From: Myxococcales bacterium
Lineage (GTDB): Bacteria; Lernaellota; Lernaellaia; Lernaellales; Lernaellaceae
DNA: 38,699 nucleotides
Direction: 5' to 3'
NCBI GenBank assembly: GCA_012517325.1
Contig: JAAYVF010000001.1
Location: 1 to 38,699, forward strand
In this document: one piece after another, positions 11,436 through 36,295 of the stretch
Layout of the letters: the number at the start of each line of letters is the position of its first letter
How positions within the stretch are numbered: position 1 is the stretch's first letter
Notes under the pieces: model-generated
The model's database searches: none
Told to the model about the DNA's origin: nothing
The model's input: the letters and a program-made list of their open reading frames with translations, nothing else
Translations under genes and position numbers: made by a program

Positions 11436-11945
11436 CTACGCGCCCGGCTTGATTTTTTTCCACTCTTGGGACGGCGCCGGTTTTTTCTTGCCGACGCTCA
11501 GCGAGCGCGACAGGGACAGGCCGACGAAGAGGTAGGCGAGGTTGGTGGCGTCGGCCAAGGGCGTGAATTTGTCCACGGCGAAATCGAGGTGGTAGAGCAT
11601 CAGCAGCACGCCGCCGCCGATGCCGACGACGCCGCAGAAAAAGCCGATCAGGCCTTTGACCGGCGAATCGGGGCCGCCGGTGAGCCGGACGGCCAGGCCC
11701 ACCACCAGGCCGATCGGCACCGCCGGCCAGAACTGCGGCGCGCCGCTCCAGCGAAACCACAGATCCCAACCGAACGCGCCCAGCACGGCGACGATCAAGC
11801 CGACCGCCAACGCCGGCAGTTTCCCGCTGACCGCCGTTTCCGGCCCGATCGGTCGCGGCTGATCCAGCAGCGCGCGGTTCGCCGTGCAGACCGGGCATTC
11901 GATTTGATTTTCGGGCAACTTGCGGTTGCAGTTCGGACAGCGCAT
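11436..11945 (-). CDS. Zinc-ribbon membrane protein, unknown function
   Basis: 169 residues. The N-terminus is a zinc ribbon (MRCPNCNRKLPENQIECPVC, two CxxC knuckles at Cys3/6 and Cys17/20). Three or four hydrophobic segments follow (about 44-60, 72-88, 97-118 and 134-150), then a basic tail. The gene is closed by the terminator at 11065-11097. GAGG lies 6 bases before ATG 11945. Zinc-ribbon plus membrane helices is a common but functionally uninformative arrangement. Confidence 0.65.
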   Translation of the reverse strand: MRCPNCNRKLPENQIECPVCTANRALLDQPRPIGPETAVSGKLPALAVGLIVAVLGAFGWDLWFRWSGAPQFWPAVPIGLVVGLAVRLTGGPDSPVKGLIGFFCGVVGIGGGVLLMLYHLDFAVDKFTPLADATNLAYLFVGLSLSRSLSVGKKKPAPSQEWKKIKPGA

Positions 11946-12055: not shown

Positions 12056-15000
12056 TTAGCGGGCGATTTCGTCCGGCGGCAGCAGCGAGCGCCAGTTGGT
12101 GATATCCAGGTCGTCGACCGTCAGCGCGCGCGAGCCCTTCACTTCGACGAGGCTGCCGAACAGGCCGATCCAATCCATCGCCGCGCCGACCTTCTTGAAG
12201 GCTTCCACGTTCAGGGTGAAGCCTTCGAACGAGGGGATGGGGAACTCCTCGAGGATGCTGCCCAGCAGCATGGGCACGAGGGTTTCGACCAGGGTCGGCA
12301 GGAAGGTTTCGAACAGGTCCTCGTTGGCGCGAATGCCTTCCTTCACCTCGTACAAGTCGCTGTACATCTCGATTTCGCCGAAGGTCACCGAAATGTACTG
12401 CTGGCCGTCGGCGCCGTCGGCGATGTTGATGTCCGTCGGCAGGTAGATGGCCATGGAAATCTTCGCCCAGGTTTCGTCCTGCGAGGAGAATTCGAGGGTG
12501 AAGTCGCCGAGCTGGATTTCGGTGGCCAGGCCCTTGGCCGGATTGATGATGAACGCCGGCGGCAACGGCGGCCGCATCTTGAGGATGACCGGTTCATTCA
12601 TCCCGTATTCGGCCCAGAGGCCCGGGAAGAAGACGCCCAGGGCGCCGGTGGTCAGCTCGAAGCCGCTGATGCCGAACTGTTCGAGGGTTTCCTCGTCCAG
12701 ATCGAGGCTGAGCAAGCCGCTGCGGTAGATGACGTAGAGCAGGCGGTTGATGACGTCGTCGCTGAGCAGGACGCCGAAGTCGTAGGGCGTCGTGGTGCCG
12801 GGAACGTTCGGGCCCAGGGTCGGCGCCGGATTGTTGGTGTACAGCGAACCCGGCAGGTTGACCACGTGCGGTCCGGGCGCCCAGCCGCCGTCGCCGTAGG
12901 AGATATCGGTGCGCAGCCACAGATCGGCGCCGTAGGTCGGATTGAAGGACACCGAGCTGAAATTGGCGGCCATCAGGTAATTGAAACCGCCGAAGGCGAA
13001 GTCGAACGAAAGGTCGAGCTGTTGCAACGCCAATTGGATGAACGGCGGCACCAGCGTCATGATCGTGTCTTCGATGAAGCCCTGGAGCAGGCTCGTGGCG
13101 AAGCTGTTGATGAGGTTTTCGAGCAGCCAGCTCAGCACGTCGCCGAAGAGTCCTTCGTCGATGCTCACCTGGATGGTGTCCCAGGTGGAGGCGACGTTGG
13201 CCAGGGTCACCTGCAGATCGCCGTTGACGTCGGCCGAGACGAGCAGGTCGGCGTCCAGATGGAACCACGGCACCGTGATGGCGAAATTCGTCGTCGATTT
13301 TTGCGGCCGGCCGGATTTATCGAAGAATTCGTAAACCAGGTGCCCGTTGGCCACCAGGTTGGTGGTGCTGCCCAGCAAGTGGATCCCGCCGTTGATGACG
13401 GACAACTCGGTGTTGATCGGCGCGAAGCTGACGCTGTCGATCCAGGCCTCGCCGTGGAAGATCTGCACGCCCCACAGTTCGTAGGTTTCATTGAAAATCG
13501 ACAGCGGGAACAAGCCGCCGATCGCTTCGCCGATGGTGCTGGCGATGAGTTCCTCGATGATCGGCTCGAGCGAATCGAGCCCGGTTTGGTTGAGGTGGGC
13601 GCTGATGGCCTGATCCAGTGTCGCGCCGTTCGCCAGGTAGGTCGGCGCGAACATGGCCGATGCGGTGGCGTAGGATTCGTTGCCGAAATTGTCGACCGCC
13701 CGCACCACGAAGGTGTTCAGGCCGTAATACAACGTAAAATTCTTTTGAAAGCGGCCCAGGTAGTCGAACGAAACCGACTGGTCGTTGATGTACAGTTCCT
13801 CGACTTCCCCGTATTCGTCGGTCACCGTGCCCTGGACGTTGAGCGCGCTGGTACTGGTGATGAACTGGCCGCGTTCCGGGCTGGTGAGGTTGATGATCGG
13901 CGGGTACGGATCGGTGACCGAAAGAATTTCCTGATCCTGCCGGACGTGTCCCTGGTACGTCGCGGTGGCCGTGACGATGATGTCGCCGGCGATGGCCGGC
14001 GTGATCGTGTTGTCGAGAATGGTGACGCCTTCGCTCGGCTGCGTGGTCAGTTCCATCTGCTCCAATTCGCTGATCGGGTTGCCGTATTCGTCTACCACGT
14101 TGACGGTCGCCGTCGACGATTCCAGCACCACCACCGGGTTCGGATCCAGCGTCAGCGCGATGCCGTCCACCGCCCCCGGCTCCACCGTGACGTGATCGCT
14201 GCCGCTCTTCTGTGTGCCCACCGCTGTGCCGATGATTTCGATGTTGCCGGCGTGCGTCAGGGTGATTTCGGAACCTTCGATCGTCGCGCCGTCGGGCGGA
14301 TTGACCGAATAGGTGACCGGCCAATCGATGACCTGGTTGTTCGAATCATAGACCGTCGCCGAGCAGGTGACCGTTTCGCCGGCGGTGATCGTCGACGGAT
14401 TGCATTCGACCGTGACGCGTTTGATGGTCGGGTTGATGCCGACCACCACGAAATCCGAACCGGTGACCGTGAAGCCGTCCACCTCGCCGGTGGCGATGAC
14501 CTCGAACTGGCCGGCCTGGGCGAAGGTGAGAACGTTACCGTTGATCGTCACGCCGGTGGTCGGATCGGTCGACAGGGTGACCGAGGTTTGTGAGGTTACG
14601 TCCTGGCCGTCGGCGTCGTAAACGACCCAACTGGCGGTGACCTGACCGCCCGCGTTGATGCTGCGGCTCGACAGGGTCACCTGAATATAGCCGTGATAAT
14701 TCTCCATCGTGTTGCCGAAATTGACGGATTTCTTTTCTAGGTTGCCGCTGTAGTAGCCCGAGGCGGTCAGCTTGTGCGGCCCTTCGGCCATGTTCAGGAC
14801 GTTGCCGTAAAAAATGCCGCCCGTATAAACGAGTTGATCGAGCACCGAGGTGCCGTCGATCGCGATATCGGGATTTTCGGGCGTGCCCAGGTACTGCACG
14901 TGCACGAAAACGACCGGGCCGACGATGATCTGCCCTTCGGTGGGCGCTTCGATGACGATGTTGTTGGACGGAACGGTGTCGTCGTCGTCGGTCTGGTCGT

Positions 15001-15175
15001 CGTCGGACTGGTCGTCGTCGCCGCCGCCGCCGTTGTCATCGTCGAGCAAACCCGAGTTGTCGTCGTCGTCGATTCCGGTGCGGGCCTGGCTTTCGCCGCT
15101 GTTGCTGCACCCGGTAATCAGCAGGAGGAGAAGCAAAGCAAAAGGAAGCAAGCGATAGATATCTTTACGCGGCAT
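12056..15175 (-). CDS. Large lipoprotein: Ig-like domains plus putative BPI/LBP-like (TULIP) lipid-binding module
   Basis: 1039 residues. The lipobox LITGC gives Cys23, followed by an Asp-rich linker (36-66). Residues about 70-500 hold beta-sandwich, Big/Ig-like repeats (for example INAGGQVTASWVVYDADGQ, ITAGETVTCSATVYDSNNQ, VVLESSTATVNVVDEYGNP) and a last domain with YYGLNTFVVRAVDNFGN. From about 514 on the sequence changes. An amphipathic helix (LNQTGLDSLEPIIEEL), long strands, a helix after VSIDEGLFGDVLSWLLENL and LVPPFIQLALQQLDL, and near the end EEFPIPSFEGFTL (about 975), follow the order of both barrels of BPI/LBP/CETP proteins, which bind lipid or lipopolysaccharide. That assignment is my reading of motif order and spacing, not a search result. 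ATG 15175 has AAGGAGT upstream; the frame extends 19 codons further but only the inner ATG gives a signal peptide. Confidence 0.75.
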   Translation of the reverse strand: MPRKDIYRLLPFALLLLLLITGCSNSGESQARTGIDDDDNSGLLDDDNGGGGDDDQSDDDQTDDDDTVPSNNIVIEAPTEGQIIVGPVVFVHVQYLGTPENPDIAIDGTSVLDQLVYTGGIFYGNVLNMAEGPHKLTASGYYSGNLEKKSVNFGNTMENYHGYIQVTLSSRSINAGGQVTASWVVYDADGQDVTSQTSVTLSTDPTTGVTINGNVLTFAQAGQFEVIATGEVDGFTVTGSDFVVVGINPTIKRVTVECNPSTITAGETVTCSATVYDSNNQVIDWPVTYSVNPPDGATIEGSEITLTHAGNIEIIGTAVGTQKSGSDHVTVEPGAVDGIALTLDPNPVVVLESSTATVNVVDEYGNPISELEQMELTTQPSEGVTILDNTITPAIAGDIIVTATATYQGHVRQDQEILSVTDPYPPIINLTSPERGQFITSTSALNVQGTVTDEYGEVEELYINDQSVSFDYLGRFQKNFTLYYGLNTFVVRAVDNFGNESYATASAMFAPTYLANGATLDQAISAHLNQTGLDSLEPIIEELIASTIGEAIGGLFPLSIFNETYELWGVQIFHGEAWIDSVSFAPINTELSVINGGIHLLGSTTNLVANGHLVYEFFDKSGRPQKSTTNFAITVPWFHLDADLLVSADVNGDLQVTLANVASTWDTIQVSIDEGLFGDVLSWLLENLINSFATSLLQGFIEDTIMTLVPPFIQLALQQLDLSFDFAFGGFNYLMAANFSSVSFNPTYGADLWLRTDISYGDGGWAPGPHVVNLPGSLYTNNPAPTLGPNVPGTTTPYDFGVLLSDDVINRLLYVIYRSGLLSLDLDEETLEQFGISGFELTTGALGVFFPGLWAEYGMNEPVILKMRPPLPPAFIINPAKGLATEIQLGDFTLEFSSQDETWAKISMAIYLPTDINIADGADGQQYISVTFGEIEMYSDLYEVKEGIRANEDLFETFLPTLVETLVPMLLGSILEEFPIPSFEGFTLNVEAFKKVGAAMDWIGLFGSLVEVKGSRALTVDDLDITNWRSLLPPDEIAR

Positions 15176-15222
15176 GGTTCCGACTCCTTCCGTCCCCCGG
15201 AGAATGCACAATCTCCCAAGCC

Positions 15223-15252
15223 ATTTTATCATTGAATTAATTTCGGGCGCAA
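15223..15252 (-). promoter_or_regulatory. Candidate promoter of the large lipoprotein gene
   Basis: On the minus strand, TTGCGC (complement of 15247-15252) and TAAAAT (complement of 15223-15228) are 18 bases apart in the only AT-rich patch upstream. It leaves a leader of about 40 bases. The -35 is weak and the -10 good. Confidence 0.42.
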
Positions 15253-15944: not shown

Positions 15945-17030
15945 TCAGAAAGCCGCGGGTGGAACGTCGCGACCTTCGCCCGGGGCCAGGGTGAAAAAGC
16001 GTTCGGGCGGAACGCCGTACTGTTCCCGCGCTTTTCGCAGGTCGGCCACGGGCTGATCCTGCGCGTCGTCCGCCAGCCGGAACGTGCCGAAATGAATGCC
16101 CAGGCTCGCGGCCGCGCCCAATTCCCGCGAGGCTTTGACCGCTTCCCCCGGATTGATGTGCATCTGCCGCATGAACCAGCGCGGCTCGTAGGCGCCGATC
16201 GGCAACAGGGCCAGCCGCGGCGCGCCGAGACGTTCGCGGATTTGCCGGAAGTGCGAGGCGTACCCGGTATCGCCGGCGAAATAGATGCCGCCGGCGGCGC
16301 TTTGCAGGAAAAATCCGCCCCACAGGGTTTGGAAATGATCGGTCATGCTGCGGCCGGTGAAATGCTGGGCGGGAACGAAGGTGATCGCCAGGCCGCCCGG
16401 CCCGGCGGTCCGTTGCCACCAATCAAGGGCCGTGACCTTCGCCAAACCTTTTTTCGCCAGGTAACGGTCGTTTCCCAGGCCGGTGAAAATCGGCGGATTC
16501 CAGCGGTCGCGCAGTTGCCGCAGGGTCGGCAGGTCCAGGTGATCGTAATGGTTGTGGCTGAGCAGAATCGCGTCGATCGGCGGCAGATCGGCCAACCGGA
16601 TGCCGGGCGAATGGGCGCGTTTCGGCCCGGCCCACGAGACCGGCCCCGCGCGTTCGGACCAGATCGGATCGGTCAGAATGTTCAAGCCGTCGAACTGCAA
16701 CAAAACCGTGGAGTGATTGACGAACGTGACACGCAGTTCTCCGGCGGCGACCCGCGCCGGCGGCGGCGGTCCGGGCGGCAACTCGACGTAACCGCGCCAG
16801 GCGCCGGGCTCGCGGGTGAATTGCCACTTCACCATGTCGGTGAAGCCGTGGAGGTGATCGTCGATTTCCGGGTTGAAGAATTTCTTGCCGTCGAAATGAT
16901 CGGTGTTCATGGCGGATTCCGCTCGGATGAATTCAACAATGGCGGTAAAAGCGAAGGCAACGGCGAGACCGATCAGCGTCAGTCGGAAAATCGCCCGGCG
17001 GCGTCGTCGCGGTTGTCGGTTGTTTTCCAT
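15945..17030 (-). CDS. Membrane-anchored MBL-fold hydrolase, NAPE-PLD-like
   Basis: 361 residues. A basic N-terminus and one transmembrane helix (about 15-35) anchor a metallo-beta-lactamase-fold domain. Metal ligands are His159, His161, Asp163 and His164 in SHNHYDHLD, His223 in PAQHFTGR, Asp254 in FAGDTGY and His313 in GIHFGTF. The phrases VTFVNHSTVLLQ, LTDPIW, GPKRAHSPGI and LPPIDAILLSHNHYDH are characteristic of the NAPE-hydrolysing phospholipase D / UlaG-like branch. Family members cleave N-acyl-phosphatidylethanolamines (NAPE-PLD) or other phosphoesters; a phospholipid substrate is inferred from that and from the neighbouring lipase. ATG 17030 follows a GAGGA that is somewhat distant, so the start is less sure than the function. 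Confidence 0.8.
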   Translation of the reverse strand: MENNRQPRRRRRAIFRLTLIGLAVAFAFTAIVEFIRAESAMNTDHFDGKKFFNPEIDDHLHGFTDMVKWQFTREPGAWRGYVELPPGPPPPARVAAGELRVTFVNHSTVLLQFDGLNILTDPIWSERAGPVSWAGPKRAHSPGIRLADLPPIDAILLSHNHYDHLDLPTLRQLRDRWNPPIFTGLGNDRYLAKKGLAKVTALDWWQRTAGPGGLAITFVPAQHFTGRSMTDHFQTLWGGFFLQSAAGGIYFAGDTGYASHFRQIRERLGAPRLALLPIGAYEPRWFMRQMHINPGEAVKASRELGAAASLGIHFGTFRLADDAQDQPVADLRKAREQYGVPPERFFTLAPGEGRDVPPAAF

Positions 17031-17163: not shown

Positions 17164-18117
<954 letters not shown>

Positions 18118-19947: not shown

Positions 19948-20691
19948 TCAACTCTCGTCGAATTCTCCCTGCTTGCCCTCGATGAACGCGCGGATGAACG
20001 GATGGGGGGACCGGCGGATTTCGTCGGGCGTGCCTTCCAACAGGATTTTACCGTGGAACAGCACGGCGATTTTGTGGGCGATGCGCAGCGCCGCTTCGAC
20101 GTCGTGACTGATGATGAAGTTGGTCAGGTTGAATTTTTGCTGCGTCGCGACGATCAGGCGGTTGATGCTGTCGGTCATCAGCGGATCCAGGCCGCTGGTC
20201 GGTTCGTCGTACAGCACGACGTCCGGTTTGCGCACGATGGCGCGCGCCAGGCCGACGCGCTTGCGCATGCCGCCCGACAGCTCCGAGGGCATTTTGTGCT
20301 CGATGCCCGACAACCCGACCGCTTCCAGCGCTTCGGCGACGCGGGCGCGGATTTCGTCCGGCTTGAATTTGGTATGTTCGACCAGCGGAAAGGCGATGTT
20401 CTCCCAGACGCTCATCGAATCGAAGAGGGCGCCGTCCTGAAACAGCACTCCGAACCGGGCGCGTACGCGGTTGATGGCCTGGTCGTCCAGCGTCGTGATG
20501 TCCTCGCCGTCGATCAGCACCTGGCCGGAATCCGGCTTGAGCAGGCCGATGATGTGTTTGAGCGTCACCGACTTGCCGCTGCCGCTGCGGCCGAGCAGCA
20601 CGGTGATCCGGCCCGCCTCGATTTCCAGGTCGAGCCCGTCAAGGATCGGCTGGCCCCGGAAGGCCTTGTGAACGTCGACCAGCCGGATCAT
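19948..20691 (-). CDS. ABC transporter ATPase, MlaF-like
   Basis: 247 residues. Walker A GRSGSGKS (34-41), Q-loop Gln85, signature LSGGM (138-142), Walker B DEPTSGLDP (162-170) and H-loop His195 are all present. The segment FQDGALFDSMSVWENIAFPL is the usual signature of MlaF/Mkl ATPases, which power phospholipid transport between the two membranes with an MlaE permease and an MlaD MCE protein. Neither partner is in the window, so the ATPase must work with subunits encoded elsewhere. It begins 7 bases after the iron-sulfur protein stop and is probably the last gene of that operon. Confidence 0.88.
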   Translation of the reverse strand: MIRLVDVHKAFRGQPILDGLDLEIEAGRITVLLGRSGSGKSVTLKHIIGLLKPDSGQVLIDGEDITTLDDQAINRVRARFGVLFQDGALFDSMSVWENIAFPLVEHTKFKPDEIRARVAEALEAVGLSGIEHKMPSELSGGMRKRVGLARAIVRKPDVVLYDEPTSGLDPLMTDSINRLIVATQQKFNLTNFIISHDVEAALRIAHKIAVLFHGKILLEGTPDEIRRSPHPFIRAFIEGKQGEFDES

Positions 20692-32620: not shown

Positions 32621-35038
32621 CTATTTCGTCCCGAGGATCGAGCGAACCTCGGCCGCGTAACGGCCGTCGGGACGGGCGTTGAGGTAGGCCTGGTAATTTT
32701 GTTTTTTCAGCATCTCGTTGCCGCTGGCTTCGTACGCGGCGCCCAGGAAGTAATAGGCGTCCGGGCTGTAATTGCGCGCCGTCGTGCAGGCGTCGATCGC
32801 GGCCTCGTAATGGCCGCCGTTGAGCATGAGCTGGCATTTGCGCAAATAAATCTCGCCCGTGTAGACGCCCAGCTTCATCAGTTCGTTGGTCAGGCCGAGG
32901 GCCTCGTTCTGCGACCCGCGGCGCACGGCGTCGTCCAGCTTTTTCAACAGCTCCTTCGCCTGGGCCTTCTTGTCGGTGTCCGAAGCGGTTTCGGCCGGCA
33001 GTCCGGGCACCGGACCGGTTTGGGCGAGGTCGCCGTTGAGCAGGCTCTGGTATTGCTCGATGCGCCGCTTGGCCTCGAGGTGGTCGGGAATCAGGGCGAG
33101 CGCCTTTTCCTCGGTCTCCAACGCTTTTTTCAAATCCTTTTCCGAGGCGTACAGGTCGGCGAGCAGGTGCAGGGCGCGGAAGTGCAGCCGGTTCATCGCC
33201 ACCGCGCTGTTGAGCGAAAAGATCGCCTTGTCCTGATCCTTCTGTTGGATGTAGAGCAGGGCCAGCAGGTAGTTGGATTCCGCGTCCTCCGTGGCGTCGT
33301 CCTCCTTGACGGTCAACGCCTCGTGAAGGCTCTTGTCCGCCTCTTCCAATTTGCCGGAGGCCAGTTCGCAGGCCGCCTTGGCGCGCAGCGCGGACGCTTC
33401 CTGCGGCGCCAACTCGAAGGCTTTTTGCGCGGCCTGGCAGGCGGGTTCGACGCGATCGTCCTTTTGCCGCTCGATCGCCAGATACGCCAGATATAGCGCC
33501 TTGGTCGCCAACGCGGGTACAAAATCCGGCTTCACTTGCAGCGCCTCGTCGAGCGAACCGACCGCTTTTTCGAGCGCCTCGGCCGTGCCGGGTTCCGCCA
33601 GACGCAGGGCCGCCTGGTATTTGTTGTCGTAGCTCAGGCGTTCCTTGTTCTGGTCTTGCGCGATTTGCGAAGCCTCGTTGCGCTTGGCCATGTTGCCTTC
33701 GATCTGCTTGATTTCCTTTTTCGCGGAGAAGGCAAAAACGATCAGCCCGATCACCAGCAAAACGACGCCGATCAGGCCGCCGATCTTGGCCAGTTTCCGC
33801 CAGTCGCCGAAGCGCCGCAGGTTCGCCAGATCGGAGGCCAGGTCCAGGTCGAGCGGCCGGCGCGGTTTCGCCTTCTTCTTGCGCGCCAGCGGATTGAACG
33901 CCCGTTCGTAGCGGTTCGGCGGCTCCTCCTCGATCACGTGATCGAATTCGGCGTCCAACCGTTCGGCCTCGGCGGTCGTTTGCATCTCGGATACCGGTTC
34001 CGCGATGACGGCTTCGGCCTCCACCTCGAGAAGCGATTCCTCCTCGGCGACCGGTTCCACTTCCGGCAACGGCTCGGGTTCGGGCGTCGCTTCGGGTTCG
34101 ATCGGCGGAGCGGGTTTGACTTCGAACGACAGCGAAGGCATCGCGGGTGCCGCTGCTTGAGACGGCGGAACGGATTTGACGTCGAACGACAGCGAAGGCA
34201 TGACGGGCGCCGCCGGTTCGGCCGGCGCGGATTTTTCCTTGAAGGTCAGCGGCAGGTTCAACAGATCGCCGAGTTCGGGCATTTTGGGACGCTCGACCGC
34301 CGGCGGGGGCGTTTCGATGGGAGTCGCCATGACTTCAGGAATCGTTTCCGGTTCGGGAATCGGTTCGGCGACGGCTTCGATCACCGGTTCGGGAATCGGT
34401 TCGGCAATCACTTCGATTTCCGGTTCGGGGATTGGTTCGGCTGCGGCTTCGATTTCCGGTTCGGGAATCGGTTCGGCGACGGCTTCGATCACCGGTTCGG
34501 GAATCGGTTCGGCAATCACTTCGATTTCCGATTCGGGGATTGGTTCGGCGACGGCTTCGATGTCCGGCTCGGAAGTCGGTTCGGTATCGGTTTCGGTTCT
34601 CGTTTCCGACAGCGGTTCGGCTTCCGCTTCGGGTAGGTCGTCCGTCGGTTCGGTTTCGACGGACGATTCGGTCGCGCTCATTCGCGGCAAGGGTTGATCG
34701 ATGAAGGTCGATCGCACGACTCCCTTGCGCATACCGGTTTCGCGGGCGGCTGGTTCCAACCCGGCAAGCGAAGGCATGGGAATCGCCTGCGTGGCCGGAA
34801 TCGACTGACTCGGCGAAGGCGCCGCCGGTTCAGCCGGCGCGGGTGCGGCAGCCGGCGCGGGCGTTTCGGCCGGCGCGGATTCCGGTTTTACGGCCGCTTC
34901 GGAGGGCCGGCCATCGGCAAAGGCGCGGAAAACCGTCGCGCATTTGCGGCATTTCACCAACAGTCCTTTGGCTTTTCCCTGAATTTTTTCATCGGGAATC
35001 GGGTACTCCGCCGCACAAACCGGGCAAGCTGCCTTCAT
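32621..35038 (-). CDS. Zinc-ribbon, Pro/Glu-repeat, single-pass membrane protein with TPR domain
   Basis: 805 residues. An MJ0042-type zinc ribbon at the N-terminus (Cys5, Cys8, Cys30, Cys33) precedes a long disordered Ala/Pro/Glu region. That region contains six 12-residue repeats of the type EPIPEPEIEVIA (about 158-230) and a duplicated MPSLSF(D/E)VK motif. A single transmembrane helix lies at about 413-437 (IGGLIGVVLLVIGLIVFAF). The C-terminal part (about 450-805) has TPR repeats (NYLLALLYIQQKDQDKAIFSLNSA, ALHLLADLYASEKDLKKALETEEKAL). The layout, zinc ribbon inside and TPR outside, recalls deltaproteobacterial gliding or envelope scaffolds. GGGAG precedes ATG 35038. Confidence 0.78.
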   Translation of the reverse strand: MKAACPVCAAEYPIPDEKIQGKAKGLLVKCRKCATVFRAFADGRPSEAAVKPESAPAETPAPAAAPAPAEPAAPSPSQSIPATQAIPMPSLAGLEPAARETGMRKGVVRSTFIDQPLPRMSATESSVETEPTDDLPEAEAEPLSETRTETDTEPTSEPDIEAVAEPIPESEIEVIAEPIPEPVIEAVAEPIPEPEIEAAAEPIPEPEIEVIAEPIPEPVIEAVAEPIPEPETIPEVMATPIETPPPAVERPKMPELGDLLNLPLTFKEKSAPAEPAAPVMPSLSFDVKSVPPSQAAAPAMPSLSFEVKPAPPIEPEATPEPEPLPEVEPVAEEESLLEVEAEAVIAEPVSEMQTTAEAERLDAEFDHVIEEEPPNRYERAFNPLARKKKAKPRRPLDLDLASDLANLRRFGDWRKLAKIGGLIGVVLLVIGLIVFAFSAKKEIKQIEGNMAKRNEASQIAQDQNKERLSYDNKYQAALRLAEPGTAEALEKAVGSLDEALQVKPDFVPALATKALYLAYLAIERQKDDRVEPACQAAQKAFELAPQEASALRAKAACELASGKLEEADKSLHEALTVKEDDATEDAESNYLLALLYIQQKDQDKAIFSLNSAVAMNRLHFRALHLLADLYASEKDLKKALETEEKALALIPDHLEAKRRIEQYQSLLNGDLAQTGPVPGLPAETASDTDKKAQAKELLKKLDDAVRRGSQNEALGLTNELMKLGVYTGEIYLRKCQLMLNGGHYEAAIDACTTARNYSPDAYYFLGAAYEASGNEMLKKQNYQAYLNARPDGRYAAEVRSILGTK
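34350..34565. repeat. Six 36-bp tandem repeats arranged as a 108-bp duplication
   Basis: Units start at 34350, 34386, 34422, 34458, 34494 and 34530. Units 1 and 4 are identical, units 2 and 5 are identical, and units 3 and 6 differ at four bases. So 34350-34457 was duplicated as 34458-34565. All unit lengths keep the reading frame of the zinc-ribbon/TPR gene. Confidence 0.9.
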
Positions 35039-35140
35039 CAAATCACTCCCAAAATTTACAAGCCGACCACCGGATACACTAAGATAAGCAAGATCATCCA
35101 ACTTTTCAGGTCCAATCGTCAACCTTCGAAGCAAAGGAAT

Positions 35141-35169
35141 TTGCGGGCCGTGAAAAAAACGGGTATAGC
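35141..35169 (+). promoter_or_regulatory. Candidate promoter of trmD
   Basis: TTGCGG (35141-35146), a 17-base spacer and TATAGC (35164-35169) lie 31 bases before the trmD start in an AT-rich divergent region of about 160 bases. The match is moderate. Confidence 0.42.
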
Positions 35170-35200
35170 TGACTGGGCTCGTCAGAAACCTGGAAGCACG

Positions 35201-36295
35201 ATGAACATCCGCGTTTTGACCATTTTCCCCACTTTCTTTTCTTCCTGCCTGGGCGAAGGCCTGCTCGGCAAGGCGGCCGACAAGGGCCTGGTGAACGTCG
35301 CGGCCGTCAACCTGCGCGATTATGCGACCGGTCGGCATCGGCCGGTGGACGACGTGCCGTACGGCGGCGGGGCCGGCATGGTGATGAAGGTCGACGTCTG
35401 GGCGAAGGCGATCGAGGCGGCGCGGCGCGAACTGCCGGGCGCCCGCGTGGTGCTGTTGACGCCGCAGGGCCCGAAACTCGACGAACAAACGGCGCTCCGG
35501 CTGGCGCGGGAAACGTCGCTGGTGTTTTGTTGCGGCCGCTACGAAGGCGTGGACGAACGGGTCGCCGAACACCTCGTGGACGAATGGCTGTCGATCGGCG
35601 ACTTCGTGCTGACCGGCGGCGAACCGGCCGCGCTGGCGGCGATCGACGCCATCGCGCGCAAACTGCCGGGCGTGATCGGCAAGGCCGAATCGGTGGAAAC
35701 CGACACCTTCACGGCGGGGCTCAAACATCCGGCCTACACCCGGCCGCCTGAGTTTCGCGGCTGGCGGGTTCCCGAGGTGCTGCTCGGCGGCAACCATGCC
35801 GCCATCGAGGATTGGCGCCGCCGGGAATCGTTGGCGCGCACGGCGCGGCTGCGGCCCGACCTGGCGGCCGGCGCGGCGGCTTCGCGGGTGCGCCTCGCGG
35901 TGCGCGATCCCGAGCCGTGGCTGCTCGAGCCGCTGGCGGCGGCCGGGCGCGCCTACGGCTTGCGCGAGGTCGTCTGCGCGGTCGTCGATCCGGACCGGCG
36001 CCGCGCGCTGCGCGAAACGGCCGGCGACCTGGTCAAGGTGACCGGACCGCTCGACGCGGCGCTACGCAAACGGCCGAAGGAGCGGTTGTTCCACCTGGCC
36101 GACCGGCCGGGCCCGGGGCAGGCGCCGCTCGCGGAAATCGCGGCCCGGTTGGCGGCGGCCACCGACGGCGCAACGATCGTCTGGGGCGGCGAACCGCCGC
36201 GGAAAGCCGTTTCGGCCGCGCCGGCGCTGCCCGGCGAAGCCGCCTCGCCCCTCGCGTTGTTTGTCTGGCTCGAACGCCTCTTCAGCGGTCGTTGA
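35201..36295 (+). CDS. trmD: tRNA (guanine37-N1)-methyltransferase with C-terminal extension
   Basis: 364 residues. Residues 1-240 are a complete TrmD with RVLTIFPTFF, DDVPYGGGAGMVMK, CCGRYEGVDERV, SIGDFVLTGGEPAAL, HPAYTRPPEFRGWRVPEVLL and GNHAAIEDWRR. It methylates G37 of tRNAs to prevent frameshifting. TrmD normally ends near 250 residues; here about 120 more follow (RVRLAVRDPEPWLLEPLA to SPLALFVWLERLFSGR). Some deltaproteobacterial TrmD proteins carry a second SPOUT-type (RNA_Me_trans) domain at this place, and the extension may be a worn relative. The usual rpsP, rimM and rplS neighbours are missing. ATG 35201 fits the family start. Confidence 0.93.
   Translation: MNIRVLTIFPTFFSSCLGEGLLGKAADKGLVNVAAVNLRDYATGRHRPVDDVPYGGGAGMVMKVDVWAKAIEAARRELPGARVVLLTPQGPKLDEQTALRLARETSLVFCCGRYEGVDERVAEHLVDEWLSIGDFVLTGGEPAALAAIDAIARKLPGVIGKAESVETDTFTAGLKHPAYTRPPEFRGWRVPEVLLGGNHAAIEDWRRRESLARTARLRPDLAAGAAASRVRLAVRDPEPWLLEPLAAAGRAYGLREVVCAVVDPDRRRALRETAGDLVKVTGPLDAALRKRPKERLFHLADRPGPGQAPLAEIAARLAAATDGATIVWGGEPPRKAVSAAPALPGEAASPLALFVWLERLFSGR

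Follow-up and report, generated by a model that had tools for sequence, protein, structure and literature searches.

The C-terminal module of a lipoprotein encoded in the window (the whole 38,699-nucleotide stretch analyzed) adds a new bacterial form to the CETP/BPI double TULIPs and does not belong to DUF4403. Within the limits of sequence and prediction, both its fold and its homology to BPI and LBP are established, and the combination of a lipid anchor, an Ig-like stalk and a BPI-like tip is a new architecture. Literature searches within a limited library turned up no publication describing such bacterial LBP_BPI_CETP proteins. The protein is proposed to act, while tethered, as a carrier or receptor of hydrophobic ligands such as lipids; its probable site is the surface of the outer membrane, and this reading is given a probability of roughly 0.6.

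Gene and domain layout of the lipoprotein

The longest open frame (12056-15232, minus strand; 1058 aa) was uninterrupted. Given an AAGGAG just 5′ of the ATG at 15175 and a signal peptide directly after that ATG, the lipoprotein is 1039 aa long, the length assigned to it in an earlier sequence-only reading. From this start the N terminus reads MPRKDIYRLLPFALLLLLLITGC and combines a signal peptide and a lipobox, which satisfies the requirement for a lipoprotein; the lipidated Cys is ORF residue 42 and is followed by Ser at +2. These assignments were read from the sequence without a predictor. The signal peptide is followed by an Asp-rich linker, five Ig-like domains and the C-terminal double TULIP module, which occupies about residues 530 to 1030 of the 1058-aa ORF, beginning near ORF residue 530 (nt 13645) (Table 1). 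The equal 1058-aa length of the ORF at 32621-35797 (minus strand) is a coincidence, as the real gene there encodes a zinc-ribbon/TPR protein starting inside an over-extended ORF.

Table 1. Positions of the lipoprotein gene, its predicted domains and selected neighboring genes
Feature	Coordinates	Strand	Evidence or remark
Whole lipoprotein gene	12056..15175	(-)	1039 aa from ATG at 15175
Signal peptide and lipobox (L-I-T-G|C)	15107..15175	(-)	Read from sequence
Asp/Gly-rich flexible linker	14969..15106	(-)	Sequence; sits after lipidated Cys
Ig-like domain 1	14708..14962	(-)	AF2 strand pattern
Ig-like domain 2	14438..14698	(-)	AF2; stalk profile vs FdeC 4e9l, E 3.9e-8
Ig-like domain 3	14180..14428	(-)	AF2; FdeC match
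Ig-like domain 4	13913..14170	(-)	AF2
Ig-like domain 5 (Pfam Glucodextran_B)	13643..13900	(-)	PF09136 E 2e-7, above cut-off; AF2
TULIP barrel 1 (LBP_BPI_CETP N-like): long helix, beta strands, 41-residue helix	12992..13618	(-)	AF2; BPI 5-429/LBP alignment; PF01273 in 5/26 relatives
Inter-barrel strands, at place of BPI central sheet	12839..12985	(-)	AF2 secondary structure
TULIP barrel 2 (LBP_BPI_CETP_C-like), FPIPSFEGF motif at end	12143..12778	(-)	PF02886, AF2, Foldseek
Core motif LSDDVINRLLYVIYRSGLL, barrel 2 start	12710..12769	(-)	D296, N300, G310 (A2 alignment)
Small zinc-ribbon membrane protein, downstream gene	11436..11945	(-)	Comparison of L074 and L046
Metallo-beta-lactamase-fold hydrolase, upstream, co-directional	15945-17030	(-)	
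Lipase-like alpha/beta hydrolase lipoprotein, Asp-rich tether, upstream	17164-18117	(-)	Palmitoyl-thioesterase and lipase models
MlaF-like ABC ATPase, upstream	19948-20691	(-)	NCBIfam MlaF model 195.7 bits, below cut-off

An AlphaFold2 (AF2) model of residues 86-1058 (pLDDT 82, pTM 0.56) consisted of five Ig domains followed by the TULIP module, and Foldseek with this full-length model again ranked BPI at the top. A profile of the stalk matched the E. coli adhesin FdeC in the PDB (4e9l; E, 3.9e-8), and as a control no TULIP protein, including BPI and LBP, was matched by the Ig stalk profile in the same database. Together with the lipobox, these results confirm the Ig-like domains and lipid anchor described earlier. 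The Ig stalk is thus shared with FdeC/invasin-like proteins, from which the window protein differs in that its stalk bears a tip of lipid-binding type and a lipid anchor replaces the beta-barrel.

Sequence and structural evidence for the double barrel

A single-sequence phmmer search of the PDB with the module identified no match, and the BPI/LBP signal therefore needs a profile. Paralogues from the window genome were aligned with relatives belonging to the genome's own family and class, 26 modules in all (A2), and the alignment was searched as a profile against 177,635 PDB sequences. LBP was matched with an E value of 4.4e-19 (model 65-473) and BPI with 8.4e-18 (model 13-446; BPI residues 5-429, covering both barrels); SPLUNC1 and CETP were matched as well, and there were zero non-TULIP matches up to E 10. 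The similarity to BPI and LBP is far beyond chance and, being significant across both barrels, satisfies the criterion for the CETP/BPI family. A profile built from only six paralogues of the window genome still matched LBP in the PDB (E, 3.5e-11), its sole other match being an unrelated chain at E 1.2. Within the core motif, D296, N300 and G310 were invariant or nearly so in A2 and are common to LBP and BPI.

Individual sequences gave weaker signals. The Pfam family LBP_BPI_CETP_C (PF02886) matched the window protein with an E value of 7.7e-4 and one paralogue with 5.2e-4; the window protein scored 19.4-21.8 bits against a curated cut-off of 23, or 24 bits with neighbors in frame, and relatives in three other genomes (G004, G006 and G194) exceeded the cut-off. 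Scanned one by one, 9/26 modules matched LBP_BPI_CETP_C (best, 3.3e-9) and 5/26 the N-terminal family (best, 2.4e-5), and the next Pfam matches were the juvenile-hormone-binding and group 7 allergen families, both TULIP. At E 0.001, PF02886 was reached in only 4/290 genomes, indicating that existing models largely miss the family, and no NCBIfam family covering the lipoprotein was identified.

AlphaFold2 run on A2 (pLDDT 83, pTM 0.75) predicted a long helix, strands, a 41-residue helix, inter-barrel strands and a second barrel, in that order. Several elements had been picked out by eye as BPI-like, and the model placed them as claimed. Numbered so that module residue 1 is ORF residue 530, LNQTGLDSLEPIIEEL falls within helix 20-44, the stretch from VSIDEGLFGDVLSWLLENL to IEDTIMTLVPPFIQLAL runs into and across helix 168-208, LDLSFDF forms strand 213-218, and ILEEFPIPSFEGFTL connects helix 442-461 with the closing strands of barrel two. 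Foldseek searches of the PDB ranked BPI (1.3e-23), LBP (5.8e-23) and CETP (3.1e-19) highest, followed by OrfX3/P47, SPLUNC1, Der f 7, juvenile hormone binding protein and Takeout. The structural alignment with BPI extended over about 519 columns and both barrels, with a TM score of 0.67 on the target, and the AF2 and Foldseek results satisfy the pseudodimer criterion of two joined TULIP barrels. Overall rmsd was high (6-9 Å over some 500 columns), which may reflect a differing inter-barrel angle. A BPI-type double TULIP fold is therefore near certain for the module. The sequence-only reading of a BPI/LBP-like double barrel was accordingly borne out by profile, model and structure search, and neither outcome named beforehand as refuting it was encountered: the model does not lack two TULIP barrels but aligns with BPI, LBP and CETP over both, and no unrelated beta-rich family scored better, the profile searches matching TULIP proteins only.

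Related families, distribution and origin

With eukaryotic BPI, LBP and CETP (PF01273 plus PF02886), the window family shares two colinear full-length barrels, the same order of helices and strands, the D/N/G motif opening barrel 2 and the FP-x-P ending. It differs in being bacterial, lipid anchored, Ig stalked and acidic, in its many paralogues, and in an identity of only ~14% between the window module and these proteins by structure alignment. A disulfide in the N-terminal barrel is common to BPI and LBP; there is no cysteine in the window module, so this criterion is unmet and the BPI disulfide is impossible there.

DUF4403 (PF14356) is likewise bacterial, often a lipoprotein, and predicted to form two TULIP barrels (Levine 2019, PMC6791001), although no Ig stalk is reported for it. 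That 2019 study, in which DUF4403 was proposed, linked it to BPI by remote profile methods only, with a best probability of 63% (PMC6791001). Comparison of DUF4403 with A2 using hhalign gave a probability of 0.7% and no profile relation, PF14356 matched 0/26 members at E 0.1, and no DUF4403 member occurred in the window genome or elsewhere in its class; membership in DUF4403 was therefore rejected. In a control search of the PDB, a profile of ten DUF4403 proteins matched no TULIP protein, including BPI and LBP, up to E 10. This profile was shallower than A2 (10 sequences against 26), but the six-paralogue profile still finds LBP, and depth alone is thus not the cause of the difference. As judged by these sequence profiles, the window family is closer to BPI and LBP than is DUF4403, the sole bacterial relative compared.

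YceB/DUF1439, DUF2140 and DUF2993/LmeA are also exported bacterial TULIP domains, but have a single barrel, and none was matched by the 26 modules except LmeA for one relative (E, 0.092). The P47/OrfX proteins of clostridial neurotoxin clusters have a TULIP-like fold and appeared in Foldseek behind BPI, LBP and CETP; they differ in a far weaker structural match (TM 0.2-0.3), the lack of a sequence match to the A2 profile, and their setting, and they are not lipoproteins. In view of DUF4403, DUF2140, DUF2993, YceB and P47/OrfX (PMC6791001), the earlier remark that bacterial TULIP proteins are few is partly outdated, but the window family is not accounted for by DUF4403.

The window comes from an environmental bacterium in a poorly known phylum, candidate phylum FEN-1099, for which the name Ca. 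Lernaellota has been proposed (PMC13248872). The family was found in 7/7 genomes of the class to which the window genome belongs, with 2-7 copies each and seven in the window genome itself. Overall, its profile was matched in 26 of the 386 genomes sampled. In two other small phyla, every genome searched had a match. In one of these (2/2 genomes) the proteins were full-length modules of ~510-520 aa with a signal peptide only, and in the other (5/5) they were larger. Homology of the matches in other phyla rests on profile scores, and only some match PF02886 too. Five distant relatives from other phyla (L078, L060, L062, L059 and L079) end in a C-terminal GC, a hydrophobic helix and an Arg/Lys tail, and these tags resemble MYXO-CTERM, whose proteins reach the cell surface by sorting in Myxococcus (PMC11980579).

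Two unusual family members were also identified. In a 1516-aa paralogue (L011:8115-12665, minus strand), Cys-rich repeats separate the Asp-rich linker from the Ig domains. In genome G096, the family profile matched a 1603-aa frame (L077:3837-8648, minus strand) twice, at sites separated by a tag-like segment and Ig-like domains; the frame looks like either a tandem gene pair run together without a stop or a genuine double protein.

A 2017 review raised the possibility that two TULIP domains were first joined in prokaryotes, but stated that evidence for this was still lacking (PMC5507252). As a plain HMM search reaches from the window family to LBP (E 4e-19), the origin of BPI, LBP and CETP is now open to phylogenetic test. 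That the family is an old bacterial branch of CETP/BPI, with the two-barrel duplication having occurred before or outside eukaryotes, is a tentative idea to which somewhat less than even odds are given, no tree with eukaryotic sequences being available. If true, such envelope lipoproteins would be extant relatives of the protein from which animal LPS-binding and plasma lipid-transfer proteins descended. A bacterial BPI-type double barrel also becomes accessible to genetics and biochemistry.

Charge, gene neighborhood and proposed role

The fold, the BPI/LBP homology, the stalk, the lipobox and the family spread were demonstrated computationally; lipid binding or transfer by the module is inferred from the fold, there being no ligand or transfer data for any family member. 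In the proposed mechanism, an outer-membrane lipoprotein would hold the double TULIP barrel off the membrane via the Asp-rich linker and five Ig-like domains. Each barrel would be expected from its fold to enclose a lipid or comparable molecule in a hydrophobic pocket (cavity size is unmeasured), and the hydrophobic ligand, once taken up, could be exchanged in either direction with the outer membrane or with a partner. The ligand, the membrane side and the direction of transfer are all inferred. The absence of ligand data, and the existence of OrfX/P47 and similar TULIP-like proteins with roles not clearly tied to lipid carriage, leave room for a double barrel that no longer binds lipid and serves merely in structure or in contacts with other proteins, but its full-length colinear similarity to BPI and LBP has been kept, making such a loss very improbable.

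The charge of the module bears on what could be bound. BPI and LBP bind LPS, and the BPI tip for this is cationic. The window module has 18 K+R and 68 D+E, with a pI of 4.05 and a strongly negative net charge, and a pI of about 4 was found for 26/26 modules. The cationic N-terminal tip characteristic of the LPS subgroup is thus unmet, as judged from overall composition without a surface map. For an acidic module without cysteine, cationic BPI-style LPS binding is unsupported; LPS binding in the BPI manner is disfavored, which weakens one of the ligand options raised by the sequence-only reading, and from the very acidic composition it is inferred that the protein acts as a carrier and not in killing. 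The same composition, opposite to that of the BPI tip, counts against a surface adhesin or recognition protein whose BPI-like tip binds lipid A or envelope lipids of neighboring bacteria in attachment, predation or kin recognition. Such a role could be drawn from the resemblance of the stalk to FdeC, the LPS binding of BPI and LBP, and the several diverged copies per genome, but nothing is known of predation in the lineage of the window genome, and it is considered quite unlikely.

By the E. coli Lol rule, Ser at +2 leads to the inference that the protein resides in the outer membrane. Its display on the outer surface is a further inference, from the Ig stalk, the acidic tether, the surface-type tags of distant relatives and the many diverged paralogues, and it would mean that bacteria themselves present BPI-like modules. 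However, the tags belong to distant relatives, and the window protein, with its N-terminal lipid anchor, could equally face the periplasm. The main rival to a surface carrier or receptor is accordingly a periplasmic shuttle, anchored in the outer membrane's inner leaflet, whose Ig stalk reaches across so that lipids are exchanged with the inner membrane. A lipoprotein with Ser at +2 is compatible with this, five Ig domains plus a double barrel could be long enough to span the periplasm, and the prediction for YceB and DUF4403 is likewise an outer-membrane lipoprotein that faces the periplasm (PMC6791001).

The genes upstream on the same strand, encoding an MlaF-like ATPase and two hydrolases, would also suit such a shuttle. 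No permease or MCE gene adjoins the ATPase gene, which is closely packed with genes for DUF6178 and an FeS/FAD oxidase pair. The lipase-like lipoprotein, metallo-hydrolase and MlaF-like ATPase were all absent beside the orthologue in genome G002, and the G001 contig starts too near the lipoprotein gene to judge all upstream neighbors; a functional link with the lipid-related upstream genes is therefore no more than a hint. This lack of conservation, the surface-type tags, and the 2-7 strongly diverged paralogues per genome, which better suit varied ligands than one housekeeping lipid route, make the periplasmic shuttle unlikely, and a carrier or receptor at the outer surface remains preferred. 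Among neighbors, only the zinc-ribbon membrane protein gene was kept in all three family genomes, being linked to the orthologous lipoprotein gene in 3/3, with one gene between them in G002.

Asp-rich tethers were not confined to the lipoprotein. In the paralogues and the lipase examined, the lipobox is closely followed by an Asp run, and 525 exact matches of an eight-codon D/N pattern were identified in the window genome, many of them overlapping inside single runs, against 0 for the reversed control. Such tethers look like a genome-wide feature of lipoproteins.
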